Origin: Alphaproteobacteria bacterium
GTDB lineage: Bacteria; Pseudomonadota; Alphaproteobacteria; UBA6615
Direction of reading: 5' to 3'
Assembly (NCBI GenBank): GCA_039980135.1
Contig: JBDXCV010000003.1
Coordinates: forward strand, 868,001 to 932,000
DNA length: 64,000 nt
Below are positions 7,417 to 19,411 of the stretch, piece after piece (positions within the stretch are counted from its first letter, which is position 1; every line of letters begins with the position of its first letter). The translations under genes and the position numbers were made by a program. The notes below the pieces were generated by a model. It saw only the letters and a program-made list of their open reading frames with translations, had not been told where the DNA came from and did no database searches.

Positions 7417-8418
7417 GTGGCGACGCGCCGGGTTCGTGATCCGCAGGCCTTTGCCGATGAGGCCGCCGCCGCGTGCGAGCGGCTTCTCGATCGGAAGGCG
7501 ACCGATGTCGACTGGCCTGCCAGCCAGTCGCGCCGTTCCGTGCGGGTTTACCTTGACGATCTGACGGTTATCGCGACCCGCCGTAAACGACCGCAACGCT
7601 CGATGCTCGAAGCCAATGTGCTCAAGACCCTGCACGAGCATGGCGCCCCGGTGCCGGCGGTCCATGCCTATGACGGGGTCTGGCTGATCCAGGAGTATCT
7701 GGCCGGTGAGCGTCTGCCCCATGCCCTGATGGACTGTGAACCGGCGCGCGCGCGCGATCTGCTGTCGTCTGCTGCTGCGGGACTGGCAAAGATTCACCGG
7801 ATCGGTGCCGAGACGAAACTGCACGGCAAGGTGGTTCGTCTGGGGGTCGCCGACAGCTGGCTGCGGGACCTGATCGACACGCCGAACCGGATCGGCGAGG
7901 CTCTGCAAGCCGCGGCGCCCGATCTCGACGTGGACGGCCTGGTGAACCTCCTGCGGGCCGGCGAGCCCTGTTTCCTGAAGTGGGACGCGCGGCCGGGCAA
8001 CGCGGTGGTACAGGACGACGGCACGATTGGCTGGTTCGACTGGGAACATTGCGGCGCGCGCAACGCGCTCGATGATTTCGCCTGGCTGCTGGCCGACGAG
8101 TATGTGCCGAACGTGTCCGGCCTGGCGGACATCGCGGTGGCGAATGCACCTGCCGAGATGTCACCGGCCGTCGCGCGGGAGTATTTCCTCACCTACGCGA
8201 CGTTCCACACGGCGGTCCGGCTGGCGCTGGTGGTCCACTACAAGGATGACGGGGACTGGTGGGACGAGGCGATGTGCCTGGCCGAGGACAAGGTCAGGGT
8301 CACGGCGGCGGGCGCCTATGCGCTCTGCGCGCGGGGTGCGGAGTTCGCGATCGGCACCGACCGGACGGCACCGCTGGTGCGCTGGTTCGGTGTGATCGCC
8401 CAGCGGCTGGGCGTCTAG
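7417..8418 (+). CDS. Aminoglycoside phosphotransferase (APH)-fold kinase of unknown substrate
   Basis: A 333-residue protein of the APH/choline kinase superfamily. It has the N-lobe region AVHAYDGVWLIQEYLAG, a catalytic loop LKWDARPGN (Asp190, Asn195) and the metal-binding segment GWFDWEHCG (Asp208), followed by DDFAWLL. The histidine of the usual HGD catalytic motif is replaced by Trp189, while the catalytic Asp and Asn are kept. Start is GTG 7417, preceded by TAGGGGT and 8 bases after the pgk stop, so it is probably translated with pgk. Sugar, amino-alcohol or small-metabolite phosphorylation are all possible. Antibiotic resistance should not be assumed from the family name. Confidence 0.82.
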   Translation: MATRRVRDPQAFADEAAAACERLLDRKATDVDWPASQSRRSVRVYLDDLTVIATRRKRPQRSMLEANVLKTLHEHGAPVPAVHAYDGVWLIQEYLAGERLPHALMDCEPARARDLLSSAAAGLAKIHRIGAETKLHGKVVRLGVADSWLRDLIDTPNRIGEALQAAAPDLDVDGLVNLLRAGEPCFLKWDARPGNAVVQDDGTIGWFDWEHCGARNALDDFAWLLADEYVPNVSGLADIAVANAPAEMSPAVAREYFLTYATFHTAVRLALVVHYKDDGDWWDEAMCLAEDKVRVTAAGAYALCARGAEFAIGTDRTAPLVRWFGVIAQRLGV

Positions 8419-8432
8419 CGGTTCAATGTGAA

Positions 8433-8453
8433 GGCGATGGGCGGGGAATCGCC
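8433..8453. terminator. Possible weak convergent terminator hairpin
   Basis: GGCGAT (8433-8438) and ATCGCC (8448-8453) form a 6-bp stem with a 9-base loop between the convergent ends of the kinase and the smaller RTX gene. There is only a short T-poor tail, so function as a terminator is uncertain. Confidence 0.3.
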
Positions 8454-8460
8454 GTCTGTT

Positions 8461-11400
8461 CTACTGCAGATCGTAGGTGTCGTCGGCGAAGCTGGCCGTG
8501 CCGTGGTCGTTGAACTTGTACTCCTTGGTGACACCGCCTGTGCCGCCGTCGGCATTGTCCTGCAGGTTGATGTCGCTGATCTCGTGGCCGGCAAAAGTGG
8601 CGGATCCGCCGCTGGTGGTGAATGAAACCGTCCAGGTGCCGTCCTGATTGTTGACGAAGTTCACGTCCGCCGTGCCCACGCCCAGATCGTTGGACTGCTC
8701 GTCTTCATAGTCGATCGTGACATTGTCGCCATTCTCGAAGCCTTCGAAGAACACCAGGCCGTTCGAGAAGTTGCCGGTGTAGGTGTTGCCGTCGAAGATG
8801 AAATTGTCGCCGCCGTCGCGCGCGATGTAATAGGTATCGTAGCCGCTGCCGCCGACGAGGATGTCGTTGCCGCCGTTGGCATAGATTTTGTCGTCGAAGG
8901 TCGCGAGAGTCTGGTCGTCGGTGGTGTTGATGCCGCCGAAGATGATGTCCGAGCCTTCCGAGCCGAACAGCGTGTTCACGCCCGAGCCGCCGTCGATATA
9001 GTTGGCCGACAGGAAATTCGGCGCGCCCGGGAAGTTGCCGCCGAGGCCCACGCTCGGGTCCCAGTTGCCGACATCGCCGCCCGCCGACGCCACGATTTCA
9101 GCCTGGGTCAACGAGATGGACTGCGCGCCGCCGCCCGTATAACCGATCGTCCAGGTCCCCGTCGTGGAATTGAAGGACGGGTCGATATGGCTGAGGTCAA
9201 AATTCGTGGTCGTGACGGCGAAGAAGGAGACGAGATCGTCACCTTCGCCGCCGAAGACCAGGAACTGGTCGGCCAGCGAGGTGTCGAGGCGGCCGATGAT
9301 ATAATCGTCACCCGCGCCCGCGCGCACGATTTCGATATCGTTGACAAGACGCGTGTCGTTGAAGTCGATCAGGTCTGCACCCGTGCTTCCCTGGAGCGTA
9401 TCGGTGCCGCTGCCACCCGTGACGAGCGTGTCCTCGAGCTCATACACGGTTTCGCTACCCAGGAGCAGCGCGGCACCGGGGTCGAAAAGCAGAATGTCGT
9501 CATGGTTGCCGCCCTCGAGCCTGTCGGCCCCGGCCCCACCGTCGAGATAGTCGTTCTGATTACCGCCCTGGAGCCGATCGACGCCCGCGCCGCCATAGAG
9601 CTGATCATTCTCGTTGTCGCCGCGCAGCCGGTCATTACCGTCGCCGCCATACAGGATGTCTTCGTCGCGCCGGCCGCGGATATTGTCGTTGCCCGAGCCG
9701 CCATAGACCACGTCATCGCCGCGCAGGCCCGAGGCGCCCGCGAAGACATCGTTGCCGCCGCCAAGTGTAATAAGCGAGCTTTCATAGAGGCCGGCCAGGG
9801 TCACGTTGTCGTTGCCGTCTTCGGGCGTCTCGGAGGCGCCATCGGCATCGAGCGCGATGGCGAAGCCGAGGCTCGCCATGGTGACGGTGATGACGTCGCT
9901 GCCGGCGCCGCCGGATATCTTGTTGGTCGATGCGGGATCGGTCCCGGCGTTGGCGTCATCGTCCCAGGCCGCGTCGAAGGTGATGTTGATCACGTCATTG
10001 CCGTCGCCGCCATGGGCCTCGAGGACGCCATCGCTGTCGGTCAGCGTGTCGTTGCCCTCGCCGCCGGTCAGGGAGTCACGGAGCCCGGCGCCGCCGGTCA
10101 GGATGTCGTTGCCGGCACCGCCGTCGAGAATGTCGTCGCCGTCATTGCCGGAGATGGTGTCGTCACCGAGCCCGCCGGAGATCGTATCGATGCCGTCTTC
10201 CTCGGTCACATCCTGCGTGCCGATGACCTTGACGTCGGTGAACTTGATCTCGGAATACTCGTCGTAATGGGTCTTCTGGTTGAGATAGCCGCCGAGCTTG
10301 ATCTCGTGGTTGCCGACCGTGAGGTCGCTGACATCGATATTCACGGTGACCCAGCCGCTGTCGTAGAAGCTGTTGTTGTTCTGGCCGTCGCCATAGGCGC
10401 GGTCGATATAGTCATTGCCGCCGAGGCCGTAGAGCTGGCCGTCGATCTCGACCAGGACTTCCGTGTACTCGTTGGATTCGAAACCGTCATGGTGGATCAT
10501 GCGGTAGGTGAAACTTAATGTCGTGCCGGCCGTCGCGTCCGAGACGTTGAACGTCTTGGTGAAGGCGCCCGCCATGTCGTATTCGTTGCTCGTATTGTCG
10601 CTGCCCAGGGTGATGGCGAGTTCACCGGCATTCGAATTATACGCGCCGACCGAATCGTCGGTGGTTCCCGCACCGCGGAAGTGACCGTCCGAGTAGGCGA
10701 AGCCACCGTCATTACTGGTGAAATTCTCGTTCAGCACATCGACGACGGTCGCCACGGTTTCCTGTGCGCCGCCCGTCAGGATGTCGTTGCCGGCTCCGCC
10801 CTCGATCGTGTCCGCGCCCGAGCCGCCGTCGATCGTGTCGTTGCCCGCGCCGCCGAAGATCGAGTCTTCGCCGGACTCGCCGAACAGCGTGTCGTCGCTG
10901 GTGTCCGTATCGTCGGTCAGTTGCGTGCCCTTGATCTCGACATTCGTGAAGCTGACCTCGATGTCCTCATCGGAGAAGGTCTTCTTGTTGAGGAAGCCAC
11001 CCATGGTCAGGGTGTGGTTTCCGGCGGAAAGCGTACCCAGATCGACGGTGACCTCGATGAAGCCGCTGTCATAGTCGCTGCCGCCGTTGCCATTGCCCGC
11101 CTGGCGTACGATGTAATCGTTGCCGCTGAGGCCGTAGAGCTGGCCGTCGATGCTGATGAGCACCTCGCCATATTCATCGGACTCGAACTCGCTGGACATC
11201 TGCAGGCGGTACTGGAAGGTGATCTGTGTGCTCGTGGAGCTGTTGTCGACGGCGAAGGTCTTGTTGAATCCGCCGGACATGCCGAGGATGTCGTCGCCGT
11301 TCACGCCGCCGAGCGCGACCGAGATTTCGCCGTTGCCTCCATCATAGGAACCGGATTCATAGGCGCCGGCGGTGGTGCCGCGGAAGGCACCGTCGGCATA

Positions 11401-12045
11401 GGCGAAGCCGCCATCGTTGCTGTTGAAATCTTCCGACAACACGGTCACTTCGGTCGCGAAATTATCTTCCTGGCCGCCATAAATGGTGTCGTTGCCGACA
11501 CCCCCGCGGATGGTGTCCGCACCCTCGTTGCCGTGAAGCACGTCGTTGCCCAACTGGCCATAGACGATATCCGCGCCGTCGCCGCCGGAAATGAAGTCGT
11601 CGAAATTGAAGGTCGCACCGCCGGCACCCGCGCCGGACCCGGCGTTGAACGCGGGATCCAGCCAGCCGCCGCCCCAGCCATGGGTGCCCTGATCGTCCCC
11701 GAAGGTGTCGCCGAACAGAATATCGGCGCCATCGCCACCCTGGAGGTTGTCATTGCCCATGCCGCCGACCAGCAGATCGTTGCCCGCGCCGCCGTCGAGG
11801 GTGTCGTCGTAACTCGCGGCCGAACCGGACGCGACACTGCTATAGCCATCACCAAACAGGGCGTCTTCGCCCAGTCCGCCGGTCAGGATGTCGTCGCCGC
11901 CGGCGCCGACGAGAATGTCGTTACCGTCGCCGAACAGGAAAGTCTCGTCTTCCGTCGTGCCCGCGCCGACGCGACCCGCGCCGCCGTTGAGGCCGAGCGT
12001 GTGGTCGCCGAGGACGATGCTGAGATGGTCGAGGTAGGTAATCAT
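8461..12045 (-). CDS. RTX-type calcium-binding repeat protein, 1194 aa (smaller paralogue)
   Basis: An acidic, Gly/Asp/Asn-rich protein of 1194 residues with many GGxGxDxLxG nonapeptides, which in RTX proteins fold into Ca-binding beta-rolls after export. It opens with YLDHLSIVLGDHTLG, like the larger neighbour. Two copies of a ~175-residue non-RTX module follow (about residues 198-376 and 431-613), with conserved [21 protein letters not shown] and LGGxLNxKT. From about residue 707 the C-terminal region is closely shared with the neighbour, including [35 protein letters not shown] and the final residues DDTYDLQ. There is no N-terminal signal peptide, as expected for type I secretion with a C-terminal signal, but no ABC exporter, membrane-fusion protein or catalytic domain is seen. 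Adhesin, S-layer or matrix roles are possibilities only. Confidence 0.9.
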   Translation of the reverse strand: MITYLDHLSIVLGDHTLGLNGGAGRVGAGTTEDETFLFGDGNDILVGAGGDDILTGGLGEDALFGDGYSSVASGSAASYDDTLDGGAGNDLLVGGMGNDNLQGGDGADILFGDTFGDDQGTHGWGGGWLDPAFNAGSGAGAGGATFNFDDFISGGDGADIVYGQLGNDVLHGNEGADTIRGGVGNDTIYGGQEDNFATEVTVLSEDFNSNDGGFAYADGAFRGTTAGAYESGSYDGGNGEISVALGGVNGDDILGMSGGFNKTFAVDNSSTSTQITFQYRLQMSSEFESDEYGEVLISIDGQLYGLSGNDYIVRQAGNGNGGSDYDSGFIEVTVDLGTLSAGNHTLTMGGFLNKKTFSDEDIEVSFTNVEIKGTQLTDDTDTSDDTLFGESGEDSIFGGAGNDTIDGGSGADTIEGGAGNDILTGGAQETVATVVDVLNENFTSNDGGFAYSDGHFRGAGTTDDSVGAYNSNAGELAITLGSDNTSNEYDMAGAFTKTFNVSDATAGTTLSFTYRMIHHDGFESNEYTEVLVEIDGQLYGLGGNDYIDRAYGDGQNNNSFYDSGWVTVNIDVSDLTVGNHEIKLGGYLNQKTHYDEYSEIKFTDVKVIGTQDVTEEDGIDTISGGLGDDTISGNDGDDILDGGAGNDILTGGAGLRDSLTGGEGNDTLTDSDGVLEAHGGDGNDVINITFDAAWDDDANAGTDPASTNKISGGAGSDVITVTMASLGFAIALDADGASETPEDGNDNVTLAGLYESSLITLGGGNDVFAGASGLRGDDVVYGGSGNDNIRGRRDEDILYGGDGNDRLRGDNENDQLYGGAGVDRLQGGNQNDYLDGGAGADRLEGGNHDDILLFDPGAALLLGSETVYELEDTLVTGGSGTDTLQGSTGADLIDFNDTRLVNDIEIVRAGAGDDYIIGRLDTSLADQFLVFGGEGDDLVSFFAVTTTNFDLSHIDPSFNSTTGTWTIGYTGGGAQSISLTQAEIVASAGGDVGNWDPSVGLGGNFPGAPNFLSANYIDGGSGVNTLFGSEGSDIIFGGINTTDDQTLATFDDKIYANGGNDILVGGSGYDTYYIARDGGDNFIFDGNTYTGNFSNGLVFFEGFENGDNVTIDYEDEQSNDLGVGTADVNFVNNQDGTWTVSFTTSGGSATFAGHEISDINLQDNADGGTGGVTKEYKFNDHGTASFADDTYDLQ

Positions 12046-12367
12046 GGGCTCGAGGCTTTCCGATATTTGGTACTATCGTATTCCAATATGGGCGGGCTTG
12101 CGATGCACAAAACCATAACTGCCTATAGAAGAAGCAATTTTCAGGCCATGCGAACCGGCGGTTGGTGGTAATATAATTTCGGTATCATCTCATTCTGACT
12201 CATTTAATTACCGAAACCGCTCCACATTGCGACATACGGTGATACCGAATGCGACTCGCATCGTGAACGCAAGACGCCGCCGGGAGCGGCGGCGTAAGCT
12301 GTTTATCGATTGAAAAACCGGTTGATCCGGTCAGGAAAACGGCAGGGTATCCGGCTATTCCCGCGCC
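12046..12367. other. Intergenic region between the two RTX genes (322 bases)
   Basis: No coding frame is supported. The part nearest the smaller RTX gene (12050-12200) is visibly AT-richer than its surroundings and should hold that gene's promoter. The middle carries a 13-base palindrome around 12249-12261 (ATGCGA/TCGCAT) and a strong hairpin at 12274-12295. The layout suggests that transcription of the larger gene ends here and the smaller gene has its own promoter. Confidence 0.6.
12274..12295 (-). terminator. GC-rich hairpin downstream of the larger RTX gene
   Basis: A perfect 8-bp stem, ACGCCGCC (12274-12281) with GGCGGCGT (12288-12295), around a 6-base loop. It lies about 73 bases beyond the stop of the 2347-residue gene in its reading direction. 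The tail is not T-rich, so it may be a weak intrinsic terminator or an mRNA-stabilising hairpin. Confidence 0.5.
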
Positions 12368-15300
12368 CTACGGCGTCAGGTCATATGTGTCGTCACTGAA
12401 GTCGTTGGTCGTGCCGCCATCGTTGAAGCGGTACTTCACGGTGATACCACCGGTGCCGCCTTCCTTGTTGTCCTGCAGGTTGATGTCGCTGATTTCGTGG
12501 CCGGCGAAGGTCACGGAGCCTTCGCTGCTGGTGAACGAAATCGTCCAGGTGCCGTCCTGGTTGTTCACGAAGCTGACGTCGCCGGTACCGACGCCGTTGT
12601 CGGCGCCGTTGCTGTCTTCATAGTCGATGGTGACATTGTCGCCATTCTCGAAGCCTTCGAAGAAGACGAGGCCGTTGGAGTAGCCGCCGGTGTTGGTGTT
12701 GCCGTCGAAAATGAAGTTATCGCCGCCGTCGCGCGCGATGTAATAGGTGTCGTAGCCGTCGCCACCGATCAGAATATCGTTGCCGCCATTGGCGTAGATC
12801 TTGTCATCGAACGTGGCTAGCGTCTTGTCATCTGTGGTGTTGATGCCGCCGAAGATGATGTCAGAACCTTCCGAGCCGAACAGGGTGTTCACGCCCGACC
12901 CGCCGTCGATGTAGTTGGCCGACAGGAAATTCGGGCTCCCCGGGAACAGGTTGCCGAGCCCTGAGCTGGGGTCCCAGTTGCCGACTTCGCCGGTGGCTGA
13001 CGCAACGATGTCCGCCTGGCTCAGATTGACGGTTCTCGACCCGCTACCGGTGTAGTTGATGGTCCAGGTGTCGGTCGTTGCGTTGAAGGACGGGTCGATG
13101 TGGCTCAGATCGAAATTGGCCGTCGTGACCGAGAAGAAGGAGACGACATCGTCGCCGTCGCCGGCGAAGACCAGGAACTGGTCGTCGAGCGTTGTATCCA
13201 TCTTGCCGACAACATAGTCGTCGCCCGCGCCGGCGCGCACGATCTCGATGTCCGTGAACAGCGCATCATTATTGAAATCGATGAAGTCGCCGAGCGCGCT
13301 GCCCTGCAGGGTGTCTGTGCCGGATCCACCGGTGACCTTCGAATCTTCGAGGGCATAGAAGGTGCCGAAATCGGTCTCCGTTTCGAGGCCGGGGTCGAAG
13401 AACAGGATGTCGTCGCCACCGCCGCCCTCGAGCCTATCAACGCCTTCGCCGCCGTCGAGAATATCGTTGTTGCCCTGGCCCTGCAGCCGGTCATTGCCGG
13501 CGCCGCCGTAAAGCGTGTCGTTACCGGACTGGCCCCGCAGCCGGTCATTGCCGTCGTCGCCGAACAGGATGTCGTTGCCGCGGCCACCCTTGATGTTGTC
13601 GATCCCCGCGCCGCCTTCCACCGTGTCGTCGCCGTTGCCGCCGACAAAGATATCATTGCCGCCGCCGAGCGTGATGAGCGAGCTTTCATAGAGGCCGGTC
13701 AGGGTAACCGTGTCATTGCCGTCATCCTCGCTGGCGGACGCGCCGTCGGCATCGAGCGCAATGGCGAAACCGAGGCTTGCCATGGTGACGGTGATGATAT
13801 CCGCACCCGTACCGCCCGAGATGCGGTTGGTGGATGCCGGGTCGGTCGCGTTGTTGTTGTCGTCGTCCCAGTCGGAATCGAATGTCAGTGCGATGACGTC
13901 GTTGCCCGCACCGCCATGGGCCTCGAGCACACCGTCGAGGTCGGTGATGCTGTCATTGCCGTCGCCGCCCGACAGGTTGTCGCGCATGCCGTCGCCGCCG
14001 GTGATTGTATCGTTGCCCGCGCCGCCCACGAGCGTATCGTCGCCCGCGCCGCCGGTGAGCGTGTCGTTGCCCGCATCGCCGTAAAGCAGATCGTCGAGGC
14101 CGCGGCCGATCAACGTGTCGTTGCCGTCGCCGCCATGGAAGTCGAGGGTCGTGTCGAACCCGGCTTCTGCGGCCTGGGCAAGTGACGAGGCCATGGTGAC
14201 CACGTCGTCGAGCGCAAGCGCGTTGTACTGGGAGCCTGCTTCGTAGCTTCCGGCCGTGACGGTATCGAAATCGACGATATCGGGAGTCTCGGTGAACAAG
14301 GAAGGCAGCTCGATATCCACCTCGACACCGTCGACGAGGACCACCAGATCTTCCCAATCCTGCACCTGGATGCCGAGATGGGTGAAGGTTTCGGTCGCGC
14401 CGGAATCCGTGTTGGCGTCGCTGTTGGTCTCGATAAATGTCTTCAGCGCCAGCAGGTCGGCATAGATGTTGGGGTTGATGAACTCGGACTGGGTCAGCGA
14501 CAGGCGCAACGTATCCGTACCGGTGCCGCCGTCGAACTGGTCGATGCCGCCGCCATGCTGACCGCCGACCATCGTCGCGGTGTCGTCGCCGGCTTCGCCG
14601 TCGACCATGTCCGTGCCGTCGCCGCCATCCAGAATGTCATTGCCCGCACCGCCCATGAGCACGTCATTCGATTGACCGCCGTCAAGCGTATCGTCGCCGT
14701 CGCCGCCATCCAGCGTATCGCGATCGCCGCCGCCGCTCAGGGTGTCGTTACCGGCGCCCGCCGTCAGCGTATCGTTGCCTGTGCCGCCGTCGAGGGTGTC
14801 GTCGCCGTCACCGCCTGTCAGCGTATCGACGCCGTCGCCGCCGGTGAGCGTGTCGTTGCCCGCGCCGCCGTCGAGGCTGTCATTGCCCGTGCCGCCGGTG
14901 AGCGTGTCCACCCCGGCGCCGCCGGCGAGGGTGTCGTTGCCGTCACCCGCCGTCAGGACATCGTTGCCGTCGCCGCCATCGAGGGTATCGCTGCCGGTAC
15001 CGCCGGTCAGGGTGTCGTTGCCGGCACCGCCTTCGAGGCTGTCATTGCCGTCACCGCCCACCAGGGTGTCGTCGCCGGCTTCGCCCCGCAATGTGTCGTT
15101 TCCGGTGCCGCCGGTGAGCGTGTCATTGCCGTCACCGCCATCGATGATGTCGTTGCCGCCGCCGCCCGTGAGCGTGTCGTGGCCCGCATCGCCGTCGATC
15201 CGGTCGTTCAGGTCGCGGCCCGTGATCGTGTCGTGGCCGTCGCCGCCGTGGAAGGTTTCGTTGGTGTCGTACCCGGCCTGGGATGCCTCGCCGGCATTGC

Positions 15301-18300
15301 CCGCCAGGGTGACCGTATCGTCGCCGTCGAGTCCGTTATACTGGGTGCCGTCGAGATATTCGCCCGCGACCACATTGTTGAAGTCGACGGTATCGGCGTT
15401 CTCGGTGAAGAGGTCGGGCAGGTTGACCTCGGTCTCCACGCCATCGACCAGGACGACCAGCGTCTCCATATCCTGAATCCGGATGCCCAGATTGGAGAAG
15501 GTCTCGGTCGCGCCACTGTCGGTGTTGGCGTCGCTGTTATTTTCGATGAACTCCTTCAGCGCCAGCAGGTCGGAGAAGATGTTCGAATTGTCGAACTGGG
15601 CCTGGGTCAGGGACACGGTCAGCGTGTCGGAGCCGACACCGCCATCGTAGATGTCGATGCCGCCGCCATTCTCACCGCCGACGAAGGTCAGGTTGTCGGC
15701 GCCGTCGCCCGCATAGATATCGTCGGTGCCCGCGCCGCCGTCGATGGTGTCGTTACCGGCACCTGCGTCGATGGTGTCGTCGCCCGCCCCGCCGTCGATG
15801 ACATCGGCGCTCTCGTCCGCGGCCGTGCCCTGGGTGCCCGAGACCGACACATCGGAGAAGTTGATCTCGGAATATTCGTCGTAATAGGTCTTCTGGTTGA
15901 GATATCCGCCCAGCTTGATCTCGTGGGTGCCGGGCGCGAGATCGCTGATGTCGATATTCACTGTCACCCAGCCGCTGTCGTAGTAGCTGTTGTTGCCCTG
16001 TCCGTCGCCATAGGCGCGGTCGATATAGTCGTTGCCGTTCTGGCCATAGAGCTGGCCGTCGATCTCCACGAGCACTTCCGTGTACTCGTTGGATTCGAAG
16101 CCGTCATTGTGGACCATGCGGTAGGTGAAGCTCAGGGTCGAATCCGTTGTGGCGTCCGAGACGGTGAATGACTTCGTGAACGCACCCGCCATGTCGTATT
16201 CGTCGCTGGTGTCGTCGCTGCCAAGCGTCAGCGACAGCGTGCCGGCGTTGGAATCATACGTGCCCACGGAATCGTCCGTATTCCCCGCACCGCGGAAATG
16301 GCCGTCGGAATAGGCGAAGCCGCCGTCGTCGCTGCTGAAGTCCTCGTCGATGAGCGAGACCGTCTGTTCGCCGCCGCCGTCCTCGCCGCCGAATATCGTG
16401 TCGTTGCCGGCACCGCCGTCGATCGTGTCGGCACCCATGCCGCCTTCGATCGTGTCGTTTCCGGCGCCGCCGTCGATCGTATCGTTGCCCGCACCGCCGT
16501 CGAGCACGTCAACCCCGTCGCCGCCCGCCAGGGTATCGACACCGTCGCCACCGGCCAGATTGTCGTTGCCCGCGCCGCCGTCGAGTGAATCATTCCCGTC
16601 GCCACCGGTCAGTGTATCGTCGCCGGCCTCGCCGCGGAGTGTGTCGTTGCCCGCGCCGCCCGCCAGCGTATCGTTGCCGTCGCCGCCGTCGAGGGTGTCG
16701 TTGCCCGCGCCACCGGTCAGCGTGTCGTCGCCCGCGTCGCCGTCAATACGGTCATCCAGGCCGCGCCCGGTGATCGTGTCGTTGCCGTCGCCGCCGTGGA
16801 AGGTTTCGTTGGTGTCGAACCCGGCCTCGGTGGCCTCGGCGGCACTCCCCGCAAGCGTGACCGTGTCGTCATCGTCGAGCGCGTCATACTGGCTGCCGTC
16901 GAAATATTCGCCCGCGACCACATTGTTGAAGTCGACGGTATCGGCGTTCTCGGTGAACAGGTCCGGCAGCCGGATGTCGGTCTCCACGCCATCGACAAGC
17001 AGCACAATATTCTCCATGTCCTGGACGCGAATGCCCAGATTGGAGAAGGTCTCGGTTGCACCGCTGTCGGTGTTCGCGTCGCTGTTGTTCGTGATGAACT
17101 CCTGCAGCGCCAGAAGGTCGGCGTAGATGTCGGAATCGTCGAACTGGGCCTGGGTCAGCGACACGGTCAGCGTGTCGGAACCGACGCCGCCGTCGTAAAT
17201 GTCGATGCCGCCACCATTCTCGCCGCCGATGAAGGTCAGATTGTCGGCGCCGTCGCCGGCGTAGATGTTGTCGGTCCCCGCGCCGCCGTCGATGGTGTCG
17301 TTGCCGGCACCGCCGTCGATGGTGTCGTCGCCCGCACCGCCGTCGATGACGTCTTCGCCCTCGTCGGCCGCGATGGCCTGGGTGCCGGAGACGGAGACAT
17401 TCGTGAAGCTGATCTCGGAATCTTCGTCGGAATAGGTCTTCTTGTTCACATGGCCGCCGAGTGTGACCGTGTGTGAACCCGGTGCCAGGTCGCCGACGTC
17501 AATCGTGACCGTCACCCAGCCGCTGTCATAGTCGCTGCCGCCGCCGCCGTCGCCATTTACCTTGAGGACATAGTCGTGGCCACCCACGCCGTAGAGCTGC
17601 CCGTCGATGCTGACCAGGACTTCGCTATATTCGTCCGATTCGTATTCGCCGCTCATCTCCAGCCGGTAGCTGAACGTCAGCTCGCTGCCGGTGGACGTCT
17701 CGCTGACCGTGAAGTCCTTGCTGAAGCCGCCGGACATGCCGTCGGTGATGTCGTCGCCGTCGATGCCGCCGAGGGCGACCGAAATCTCGCCGTTCCCGCT
17801 GTTGTAGGTGCCGCTGGCGTACTCGCCGTTATCGGCGCCGCGGAACATGTTGTCGGCATAGGCGAAACCGCCATCGTCGCTGTTGAAGTCCTCGTCGACC
17901 AGGGTCACGACCTCGGAGCTGCCGCCGCCGTCCGATCCACCATAAATCGTATCGTTGCCGGCACCGCCGTCGATCGTGTCGGCGCCCTGGCCGCCCTCGA
18001 TCGTGTCGTTGCCATCGCCGCCGTCGAGGGTGTCGTTTCCGGCCCCGCCATCCAGCGAGTCATTGCCCGCGCCGCCCTCGAGGGTGTCGTTGCCGGTCCC
18101 GCCGTCGAGCGTGTCGTCGCCCGCGCCGCCCGCGAGGCTGTCGTCGCCCGCGCCGCCGTCGAGCACGTCGTCGCCCGAATCCTCGCCGACGGCGACATCG
18201 CCGGTGATCTCGACCTCCGAGAACTTGATGAACGCGTCTTCGTTGGAGCTGGTTTTCTTGTTCAGGAAGCCGCCAAGGGTGACCGTGTGGTCGCCTGCCG

Positions 18301-19411
18301 AGAGGTTGCCGAGGTCGATGGTGACCGTCTGCCAGCCGTCATTGTCGCCGCCGCCCCAGTCGCGCACGACGTAGTCGTTGCCGTTCAGGCCGACGAGCTG
18401 CCCGTCGATGCTGATTAGAACGTCTGCATATTCGTCGCGATCGAGCTTGCTCGACGCGTCGAGCTGGTAGGTGAATGTGATCTGGGCGTTGGTCGCGGCG
18501 CCGCCGACGTTGAAGCTGTTGGAGAAGCCGCCGGACATGCCGTCGGTGATGTCAGTGCCGTTGATGCCGCCGAGCTCTACTTCGACATGGCCGTCCGTGC
18601 CCGAGCCGGACCCGGACGAACCACTTGCGTAATACCCGTTGTCGGTGTTGCGGAAGGCGTCGTCGGCATATGTAAACCCGCTCGCGCCGTCGTCGAAGGT
18701 CTCGGACAGGAATGTCGTGTTCTCGGTCTCGCCGGCTTCGGTTCCGCCAACGAGCGTATCGTTGCCGACGCCGCCGAACAGGGTATCGGCACCAAGCCCG
18801 CCATAAATCGTATCCGAACCCAGTTGGCCGAGGAGCGTGTCGTCGCCTGCCCCGCCGTTGAGTAGGTCATCGAATGTGTAGGTGACGCCGCTGCCGGCCG
18901 CATCACCAGTCTCGGCATCGAAGCGGGGATCTTCCCAGCCGGCACCCCAGCTATATTCGCTGTCGCCGCCGCCATAGGTGTCGCCGTAGAGCACGTCGGC
19001 ATCGTCGCCGCCGCGCAATTCGTCATTGCCCATGCCGCCGACGAGCAAATCGCTGCCCGCGCCGCCGGAGAGATAGTCGTTGAACGTGACGGCGGTGCCG
19101 CTGCCGGAGCCGCCGGCCGCGGAGGCGCTGCCGCCCGTGCCGGACCCGTTGGAGCGGTCGTACCAGTCGTCGAAATAGTCGCCAAACAGCGCGTCTTCGC
19201 CCGCACCGCCCTCGACGGTGTCGGCGCCGCCCCGGGCCACGATGAAATCATTACCTGCGCCACCCTCGATGGTGTCGTTGCCTTCACCGGCCCCGAAGAT
19301 GATCTCGCCACCGCCCTGGTCGCCCAGCGTGTGGTCGCCCAGAATCACCGACAGGTCGTCATAGGCTCCGCTGCCGCTACCTGAACCGCTGCCGCTACCT
19401 GAACCCGACAT
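12368..19411 (-). CDS. Giant RTX-type calcium-binding repeat protein, 2347 aa
   Basis: One unbroken frame of 2347 residues, starting with [11 protein letters not shown] and then a VILGDHTLG segment as in the smaller paralogue. ATG 19411 has GGAGAC 8 bases upstream. Architecture by eye: RTX repeats; module A copies at about residues 233-402, 501-678 and 1017-1194; module B copies ([35 protein letters not shown]) at about 719-878, 1238-1398 and 1609-1771; a run of about 20 consecutive GGxGNDTLxG nonapeptides at about 1400-1610; then a C-terminal segment from about 1864 shared with the smaller protein, ending [11 protein letters not shown] repeats bind calcium outside the cell. No protease, lipase or toxin domain is recognisable. 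Export by a type I system encoded elsewhere, and a surface or matrix role, are inferred. Long frames on the + strand here are composition shadows. Confidence 0.92.

Follow-up and report, generated by a model that had tools for sequence, protein, structure and literature searches.

A 64,000-nucleotide stretch of DNA from an Alphaproteobacteria bacterium (assembly GCA_039980135.1, contig JBDXCV010000003.1, positions 868,001 to 932,000; hereafter the window) encodes two neighboring RTX proteins with a repeated, non-RTX module, which is the subject of this analysis. Both genes lie on the minus strand, as do all of their parts given below. The small protein, S (8461..12045), is an open reading frame (ORF) of 1194 residues with two modules, and the large protein, L (12368..19411), is an open ORF of 2347 residues with three; each has an isoelectric point of 4.05 and no cysteine. 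The nonapeptide calcium-binding repeats that define RTX proteins (PF00353) were detected in 14 stretches of S (E value 3.1e-63) and 28 of L (6.8e-167) and are the only Pfam family above cut-off in either. RTX repeats flank every module on both sides.

Modules S1 and S2 lie at 10915..11460 (residues 196-377 of S) and 10207..10758 (residues 430-613), and modules L1, L2 and L3 at 18188..18724 (residues 230-408 of L), 17372..17917 (residues 499-680) and 15824..16369 (residues 1015-1196). A preliminary description of the locus, made from the sequence alone, had claimed five copies of about 175 residues in two RTX paralogues; we found the same five, with limits that agree within a few residues. The copies (179-184 residues each) show 38-78% pairwise identity and 49 invariant columns when the five are aligned. 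As the description had held, the last copies of the two proteins are the most alike (S2-L3, 78%), followed by S1-L2 (63%). The conserved motifs it listed are present, but not every motif occurs in each copy: L1 has SGFTY, IDGQLVG and NDGW, and S1 has DSGFIEV. Searched against this genome at E <= 1e-5, a five-copy profile retrieved only these five, which match by construction (9e-81 to 2e-93), and single copies retrieved one another by plain sequence search with 58-75% identity at E 1e-61 or lower. Matches of this strength, by profile and by plain sequence, exclude chance likeness of the copies.

One scan of the genome collection yielded 41 distinct near full-length module stretches (at least 60 bits), and 37 of these were combined with the five window copies into a 42-row alignment, A3; one partial stretch in locus L033 and three in locus L040 that parallel locus L036 were left out. 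All 42 rows agree at ten positions (Y20, D22, G36, G63, F82, E96, G106, G133, V137 and G154), and D131, W134 and E165 each differ in a single row. It is a guess from this conservation that D22, E96 and E165 might form a metal or ligand site.

The AlphaFold2 model of L2, computed with A3, has a predicted local distance difference test score (pLDDT) of 96.1 with no residue below 70, a predicted template modeling (pTM) score of 0.92, and an all-beta sandwich of 12 strands. A Foldseek search of PDB returned 44 matches at E <= 0.001, led by human meprin beta (7.8e-6) and including carbohydrate-binding modules (CBMs) of families 61, 16 and 27 and gingipain domains K1 and K3. Structural alignment with VIA-align 2 gave the highest Z score to the MAM domain of meprin (4gwm_A; Z 13.2, root-mean-square deviation 2.8 A, 140 residues), tied with the hyaluronan-binding module 4d0q (Z 12.8, 3.0 A, 136 residues), which we take to be CBM70. 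Gingipain K3 (3m1h_C; Z 11.3, 3.3 A, 143 residues), CBM16 (2zex_A; Z 11.5, 3.0 A, 126 residues), CBM61 (2xom_A; Z 11.1, 2.9 A, 130 residues) and 4itc (Z 11.1) scored similarly. Z was at least 8 for 399 of the 989 chains compared, which places the predicted model in the MAM/CBM jelly-roll fold group. Because Z was still 10.9 at rank 50, the fold group is clear and the nearest family within it is not. The beta-rich sandwich that the preliminary description had likened to carbohydrate- or ligand-binding domains is borne out by the model, whose best structural matches are folds of the MAM, CBM, cleaved-adhesin and Eph-receptor kinds. By its predicted fold, then, the module is an uncatalogued family within the known MAM/CBM fold group, and the model links alphaproteobacterial RTX proteins to the MAM, CBM and cleaved-adhesin folds.

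Each of these structural neighbors also differs from the module. MAM domains have conserved disulfides, whereas S and L lack cysteine. CBM16, CBM61 and 4d0q resemble the module in fold (Z 11.0-12.8) but share only 8-12% identity with it, and the sole CBM model to match any row was CBM60, in one row. The gingipain cleaved-adhesin domains, likewise alike in fold (K1 with Z 11.1, K3 with Z 11.3), are 13-15% identical, come from another phylum and use another secretion route, and no cleaved-adhesin model was among the Pfam matches. A passage of one paper describes the cleaved-adhesin family as thought to work in adhesion and carbohydrate binding (PMC11982257), and part of a review of reelin calls the jelly-roll CBM-like and points out that CBM and cleaved-adhesin domains have a similar calcium site (PMC4882317).

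No Pfam family covers the module, whichever of the five copies is taken, and assignment to a named Pfam domain was rejected. The significant full-length Pfam match that, according to the preliminary description, would overturn its view did not appear. Among single copies, the matches were WD40_Prp19 (0.0094, S2), DUF1842 (0.017, S1), Big_7 (0.35, L1) and, at about E 1, FctA and Kelch_2 (L2), with none for L3; whole L gave SGBP_B_XBD (0.005), MBF2 (0.071) and Big_7 (0.57), each below cut-off. Across the 42 rows, 14 Pfam families matched at E <= 0.1, with Big_7 the most common (six rows, best 0.022) and CBM60 the lowest in E value (0.0016). The MAM model (PF00629) was touched by one row at E 0.08, short of its gathering cut-off, and was found in 1 of 150 genomes of the phylum (control, 0 of 14). 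Searches of PDB returned nothing below E 0.84 for the L2 sequence and, by profile, only the RTX-adhesin extender tandemer 4p99 (E 0.22). Among the publication titles listed by literature search, none names the module.

The description's view that no family could be named therefore stands for Pfam, but the fold group is well known and NCBIfam offers a possible relative, choice_anch_J (NF038128), whose model of 162 positions is similar in length. At E <= 0.1 it matched 13 rows of A3. In ten rows tabulated singly, three matched (L061, L042 and L059) and seven did not, and only L061, from a record labeled Micavibrio, exceeded the cut-off (32.5 versus 30 bits, E 9e-8, profile positions 66-162). NCBIfam thus reaches the family above cut-off in just one of ten members examined singly. 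Within the window, neither S nor L matched choice_anch_J at E <= 1, nor L2 at E <= 0.1, and none of 190 genomes of the class held it at E <= 1e-5 (control, 1 of 14). For profile comparison, choice_anch_J was represented by 16 segments, 15 of them from the 22 places found in a 151-genome search (11 of these genomes matching; seven partial places left out) and one from elsewhere. The comparison gave weak hints of kinship: hhalign aligned the module with choice_anch_J over 109 columns at E 0.0023 and a probability of only 12.5%, and with four MAM/DUF642-like host segments, two of which exceed a Pfam cut-off, at E 0.0013 and 17.9%; a four-row LamG control gave E 0.14 over 23 columns. By sequence, any kinship of the module to choice_anch_J is remote at best. 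Other NCBIfam matches among the 42 rows were tail_200_repeat (10 rows, best 0.0017), DVUA0089/FDP_fam (three rows, 0.0017), FimG (one row, 0.0002) and ten further families in one row each; for the five of these 13 families whose cut-offs were shown, matches in row 1 or the ten single rows fell below cut-off. The 42-row alignment and confident model define a family for domains that are blank in Pfam.

Among 289 genomes of the class, profile A1 detected the module at E <= 1e-5 in six, and among 60 near relatives also in six; profile A3 detected it, at the same threshold, in three of 398 phylum genomes. These sets overlap and every count includes this genome. The genome-collection scan gave 36 loci, labeled Alphaproteobacteria or a subgroup thereof (30), Micavibrio (two), Proteobacteria (one) and Anaerolineae (three). 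Cultured carriers include Marivibrio halodurans and Pacificispira spongiicola (L037, L053). An origin in Chloroflexota was rejected: L036 shares its ORF and module layout with the Alphaproteobacteria contig L040, L041 lies near L042 in the tree (end branches 0.011 and 0.026), and L067, at 16 bits, was dropped. L036 and L041, both filed under the Anaerolineae metagenome-assembled genome (MAG) IP29b_bin.19, are probably mis-binned, as they parallel contigs of the Alphaproteobacteria MAG PL24a_bin.80. A mobile origin was also rejected, because copy L2 had no match in plasmids or phages and none of the 50 pattern-fitting stretches that profile A2 found in viral contigs was confirmed.

Elsewhere, too, the module sits in long multi-domain proteins. 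Among 37 host ORFs, a set that includes near-duplicate contigs, two pieces from L033 and two ORFs from L058 and omits L067 as too weak, 33 carry at least two GGxGxDx(L/I/V/F/M) motifs, and modules number one to three per ORF. Pfam scanning of 18 hosts (L054 in part) detected PF00353 in 15 and cadherin-like or Big domains in 12. Half of those scanned (9 of 18) have another binding-type domain above cut-off of lectin, CBM or ConA-like kind, namely Laminin_G_3, C-type lectin, PA14, CBM60 or DUF1349/GH43_C2, where DUF1349 is presumably ConA-like. One host of a different build is the 2920-residue ORF at L057:4460-13219 (plus strand), in a record labeled Rickettsiales. Its flagellin N (residues 18-141) and C (residues 2826-2908) regions enclose Ig (immunoglobulin)- and cadherin-like domains, PA14 and one module (residues 1834-2006), together with a match to an M10-type peptidase that includes HEIGH. 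Judged by this domain content, the ORF is a giant proteolytic flagellin; flagellinolysins and giant flagellins are already in print.

Synteny around the RTX locus extends to four relatives: L033 and L035 preserve the neighbors on both sides, and L032 and L034 those on the one side covered by their contigs (neighboring genes such as PGK were named by inspection). L035 and L034 are filed under the same genus as the source, L033 and L032 under another genus of the family. Congener L035 has a single gene of 1031 residues with one module. L is nearer to this gene (91% identity in the N part, 87% in the C part) than to S (52% and 76%), and the identity of S to it is 51% and 74%. The split between S and L therefore looks older than the divergence from L035, and a recent tandem duplication was rejected; by these comparisons, S may have been lost in the congener. 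In L032 a first module is accompanied by the beginning of a second, which matches L3 best (26/35), then S2 (24) and L2 (21). Module copy number thus varies from one to three through gain or loss. In the module tree, S2 pairs with L3 (100/100), L2 joins them (98/90), and L1 groups with the first modules of the relatives' syntenic genes. In L033 the syntenic RTX gene (9563-13691) is in open pieces with stops between them, reflecting decay or assembly error.

The preliminary description had taken the likeness of S2 and L3 as a sign of exchange between the genes. Identity by itself is no evidence for this. S2 and L3 are 78.0% identical, with a synonymous divergence (dS) of 0.80, and the C-terminal regions common to S (8464..10077, from residue 657) and L (12371..13981, from residue 1811) are equally alike (75.9% over 535 columns, dS 0.78), so that the likeness needs no exchange and the inference from identity alone was rejected. 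Support for cassette exchange came instead from the mosaic of L3, which has L2-like flanks and an S2-like body. In blocks of 20 residues, the units around L2 and L3 are 85-95% identical in their flanks (70-75% in the outermost blocks) and 40-75% in the module, whereas S2 and L3 are 75-90% identical between residue 452 of S and the end of the module. Their first module block, by contrast, is 50% identical and the flank blocks next to it 45-55%, with 22% beyond these and 75% farther upstream. A three-sequence test placed a switch in L3 at alignment column 17, before which L3 resembles L2 at 11 of 13 informative sites and after which it resembles S2 at 129 of 171; the observed value was reached in 1 of 2000 permutations, for one of ten triplets and uncorrected for ten tests. 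Of 2000 permutations each, the count was 1 for L2 between S1 and L3, 4 for L2 between S1 and S2, 67 for S2 (L3/L2), 96 for L2 (L1/L3), 107 for S1 (L2/S2) and 305 to 519 for the others. On these sequence comparisons, cassette replacement in L is likely. A different history, fast change of module bodies under selection and not exchange, seems doubtful to us; it would have no bearing on the module's function. Nonsynonymous divergence (dN) between L2 and L3 is indeed higher in the modules than in the flank (0.36 versus 0.11), as fast change would have it, but module dS is raised as well (0.94; flank 0.57, spacer 0.43), and the switch near column 17 also speaks for exchange. The dS values near 1 are noisy, and conversion among repeats might keep the RTX flanks alike.

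Overall, the module represents a genuine domain family that is uncatalogued but falls within a known fold group. It is best interpreted as an RTX binding head with signs of cassette swapping. More specifically, we consider it probable, though far from certain, that this MAM/CBM-type jelly-roll is the ligand-binding, and most likely glycan-binding, head of calcium-dependent RTX proteins that are secreted or displayed at the surface. The module copies, their predicted fold, the RTX setting, the synteny, the variable copy number and the mosaic are results of the analysis, and export, surface display, binding and a glycan as ligand are inferred. S and L would leave the cell in unfolded form through one of the type I secretion systems that the genome encodes. 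A PrtD-type ATP-binding cassette exporter gene (C13:6119-7741; in control genomes the model matches 14 of 14, none above cut-off) adjoins a gene for an HlyD partner (C13:7993-9249; controls, 13 of 14 matching, one above cut-off), both above cut-off, as are four further HlyD matches on C7, C1, C9 and C3 (C3:189545-190804). Outside the cell, calcium would fold the RTX repeats into beta-rolls, and each module, spliced between two RTX segments, would project from the rod. Avidity could come from having two or three modules in each molecule, and the array would evolve as module bodies are duplicated, lost or swapped. Comparable heads are described in parts of two papers on RTX adhesins, whose ligand domains project from split scaffold domains, in one case from an RTX beta-roll (PMC12077191, PMC10865825); in the first of these the beta-roll case is Aeromonas AhLap. 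Sections of a fibrillar-adhesin survey suggest that repeated adhesive domains could increase avidity (PMC8286594). Such adhesins, as portrayed in those parts, differ in having Ig-like extenders and an N-terminal retention domain, neither of which Pfam detected in S or L; their N termini had no Pfam match, and no model dedicated to retention domains was run.

Several results weigh against this reading. Foldseek TM-scores are low (0.22-0.50 by query length for the 44 best matches), and the similar folds include protein-binding domains, such as meprin MAM and Eph-receptor ligand-binding domains (up to Z 11.8). Neither a known lectin domain nor an Ig-like array, such as the extenders of LapA-type adhesins, exceeds the Pfam cut-off in S or L, and none of the exporter and HlyD matches lies at or beside the RTX locus (C3:876461-887411). 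A whole-protein model of S from four rows was poor (pLDDT 51.5) and unusable.

The module could instead play a purely structural part, as a spacer without a ligand that makes the RTX rod longer or stiffer, like the Ig-like extenders of other RTX adhesins. Its repetition inside one protein, the faint 4p99 profile match and the cadherin-like or Big stalk domains of many hosts fit this proposal, but copies are few and, in S and L, parted by RTX repeats, the model has the fold of MAM/CBM heads, and module bodies in L differ while scaffold flanks stay alike, the opposite of what a spacer should show. We therefore regard a spacer as unlikely. We give somewhat less credence still to the idea that S and L form part of a surface layer or matrix, with the module providing contacts within the lattice or tying the proteins to polysaccharide of the cell itself. 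Caulobacter has an RTX S-layer protein, and acidic, cysteine-free RTX proteins at a locus kept in relatives suit such a role; against it, the single one-module gene of L035 means that neither copy number nor the paralogue S is kept, which is odd for a lattice. That S and L are enzymes or toxins with the module as an accessory is very improbable: the NCBIfam models RTX_toxin, EhxA, serralysin, ZapA and PueAB do match their repeats, but all below cut-off (RTX_toxin at 138 and 327 of 1000 bits), and only PF00353 passes the Pfam cut-off.

Taking the module as a binding head, we tentatively propose a broader picture, though we hold it less likely than not. In it, alphaproteobacteria would use a new glycan-binding jelly-roll family as cassettes that move among RTX beta-rolls and also into other long scaffolds, a giant flagellin included; binding specificity would then change while the scaffold stays, and the beta-roll would serve as display frame. 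If the cassette reading is true, bacteria may alter the binding of a surface protein by replacing a single domain within its repetitive scaffold.

Some lesser features of the two genes were also recorded. The gap between L and S (window 12046-12367) contains a GC-rich inverted repeat seen by eye and absent from the output of the terminator scan; L and S may be transcribed separately. Across window 8300-12500, one promoter-like consensus match (shuffles, mean 1.1) is at chance level, and five terminator-like matches (shuffles, mean 2.7, standard deviation 1.8) give nothing to build on. A non-RTX spacer of about 170 residues with the motif GGGID.xDGG.GxDTL, none of which was seen by eye in S, recurs three times in L (window 14072-17242) with 62-84% identity. 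Spacers a (16733..17242, residues 724-893) and b (15185..15694, residues 1240-1409) follow L2 and L3 and are 84.1% identical, and spacer c (14072..14581, residues 1611-1780), with no module directly before it, is 65.9% identical to a and 62.4% to b.

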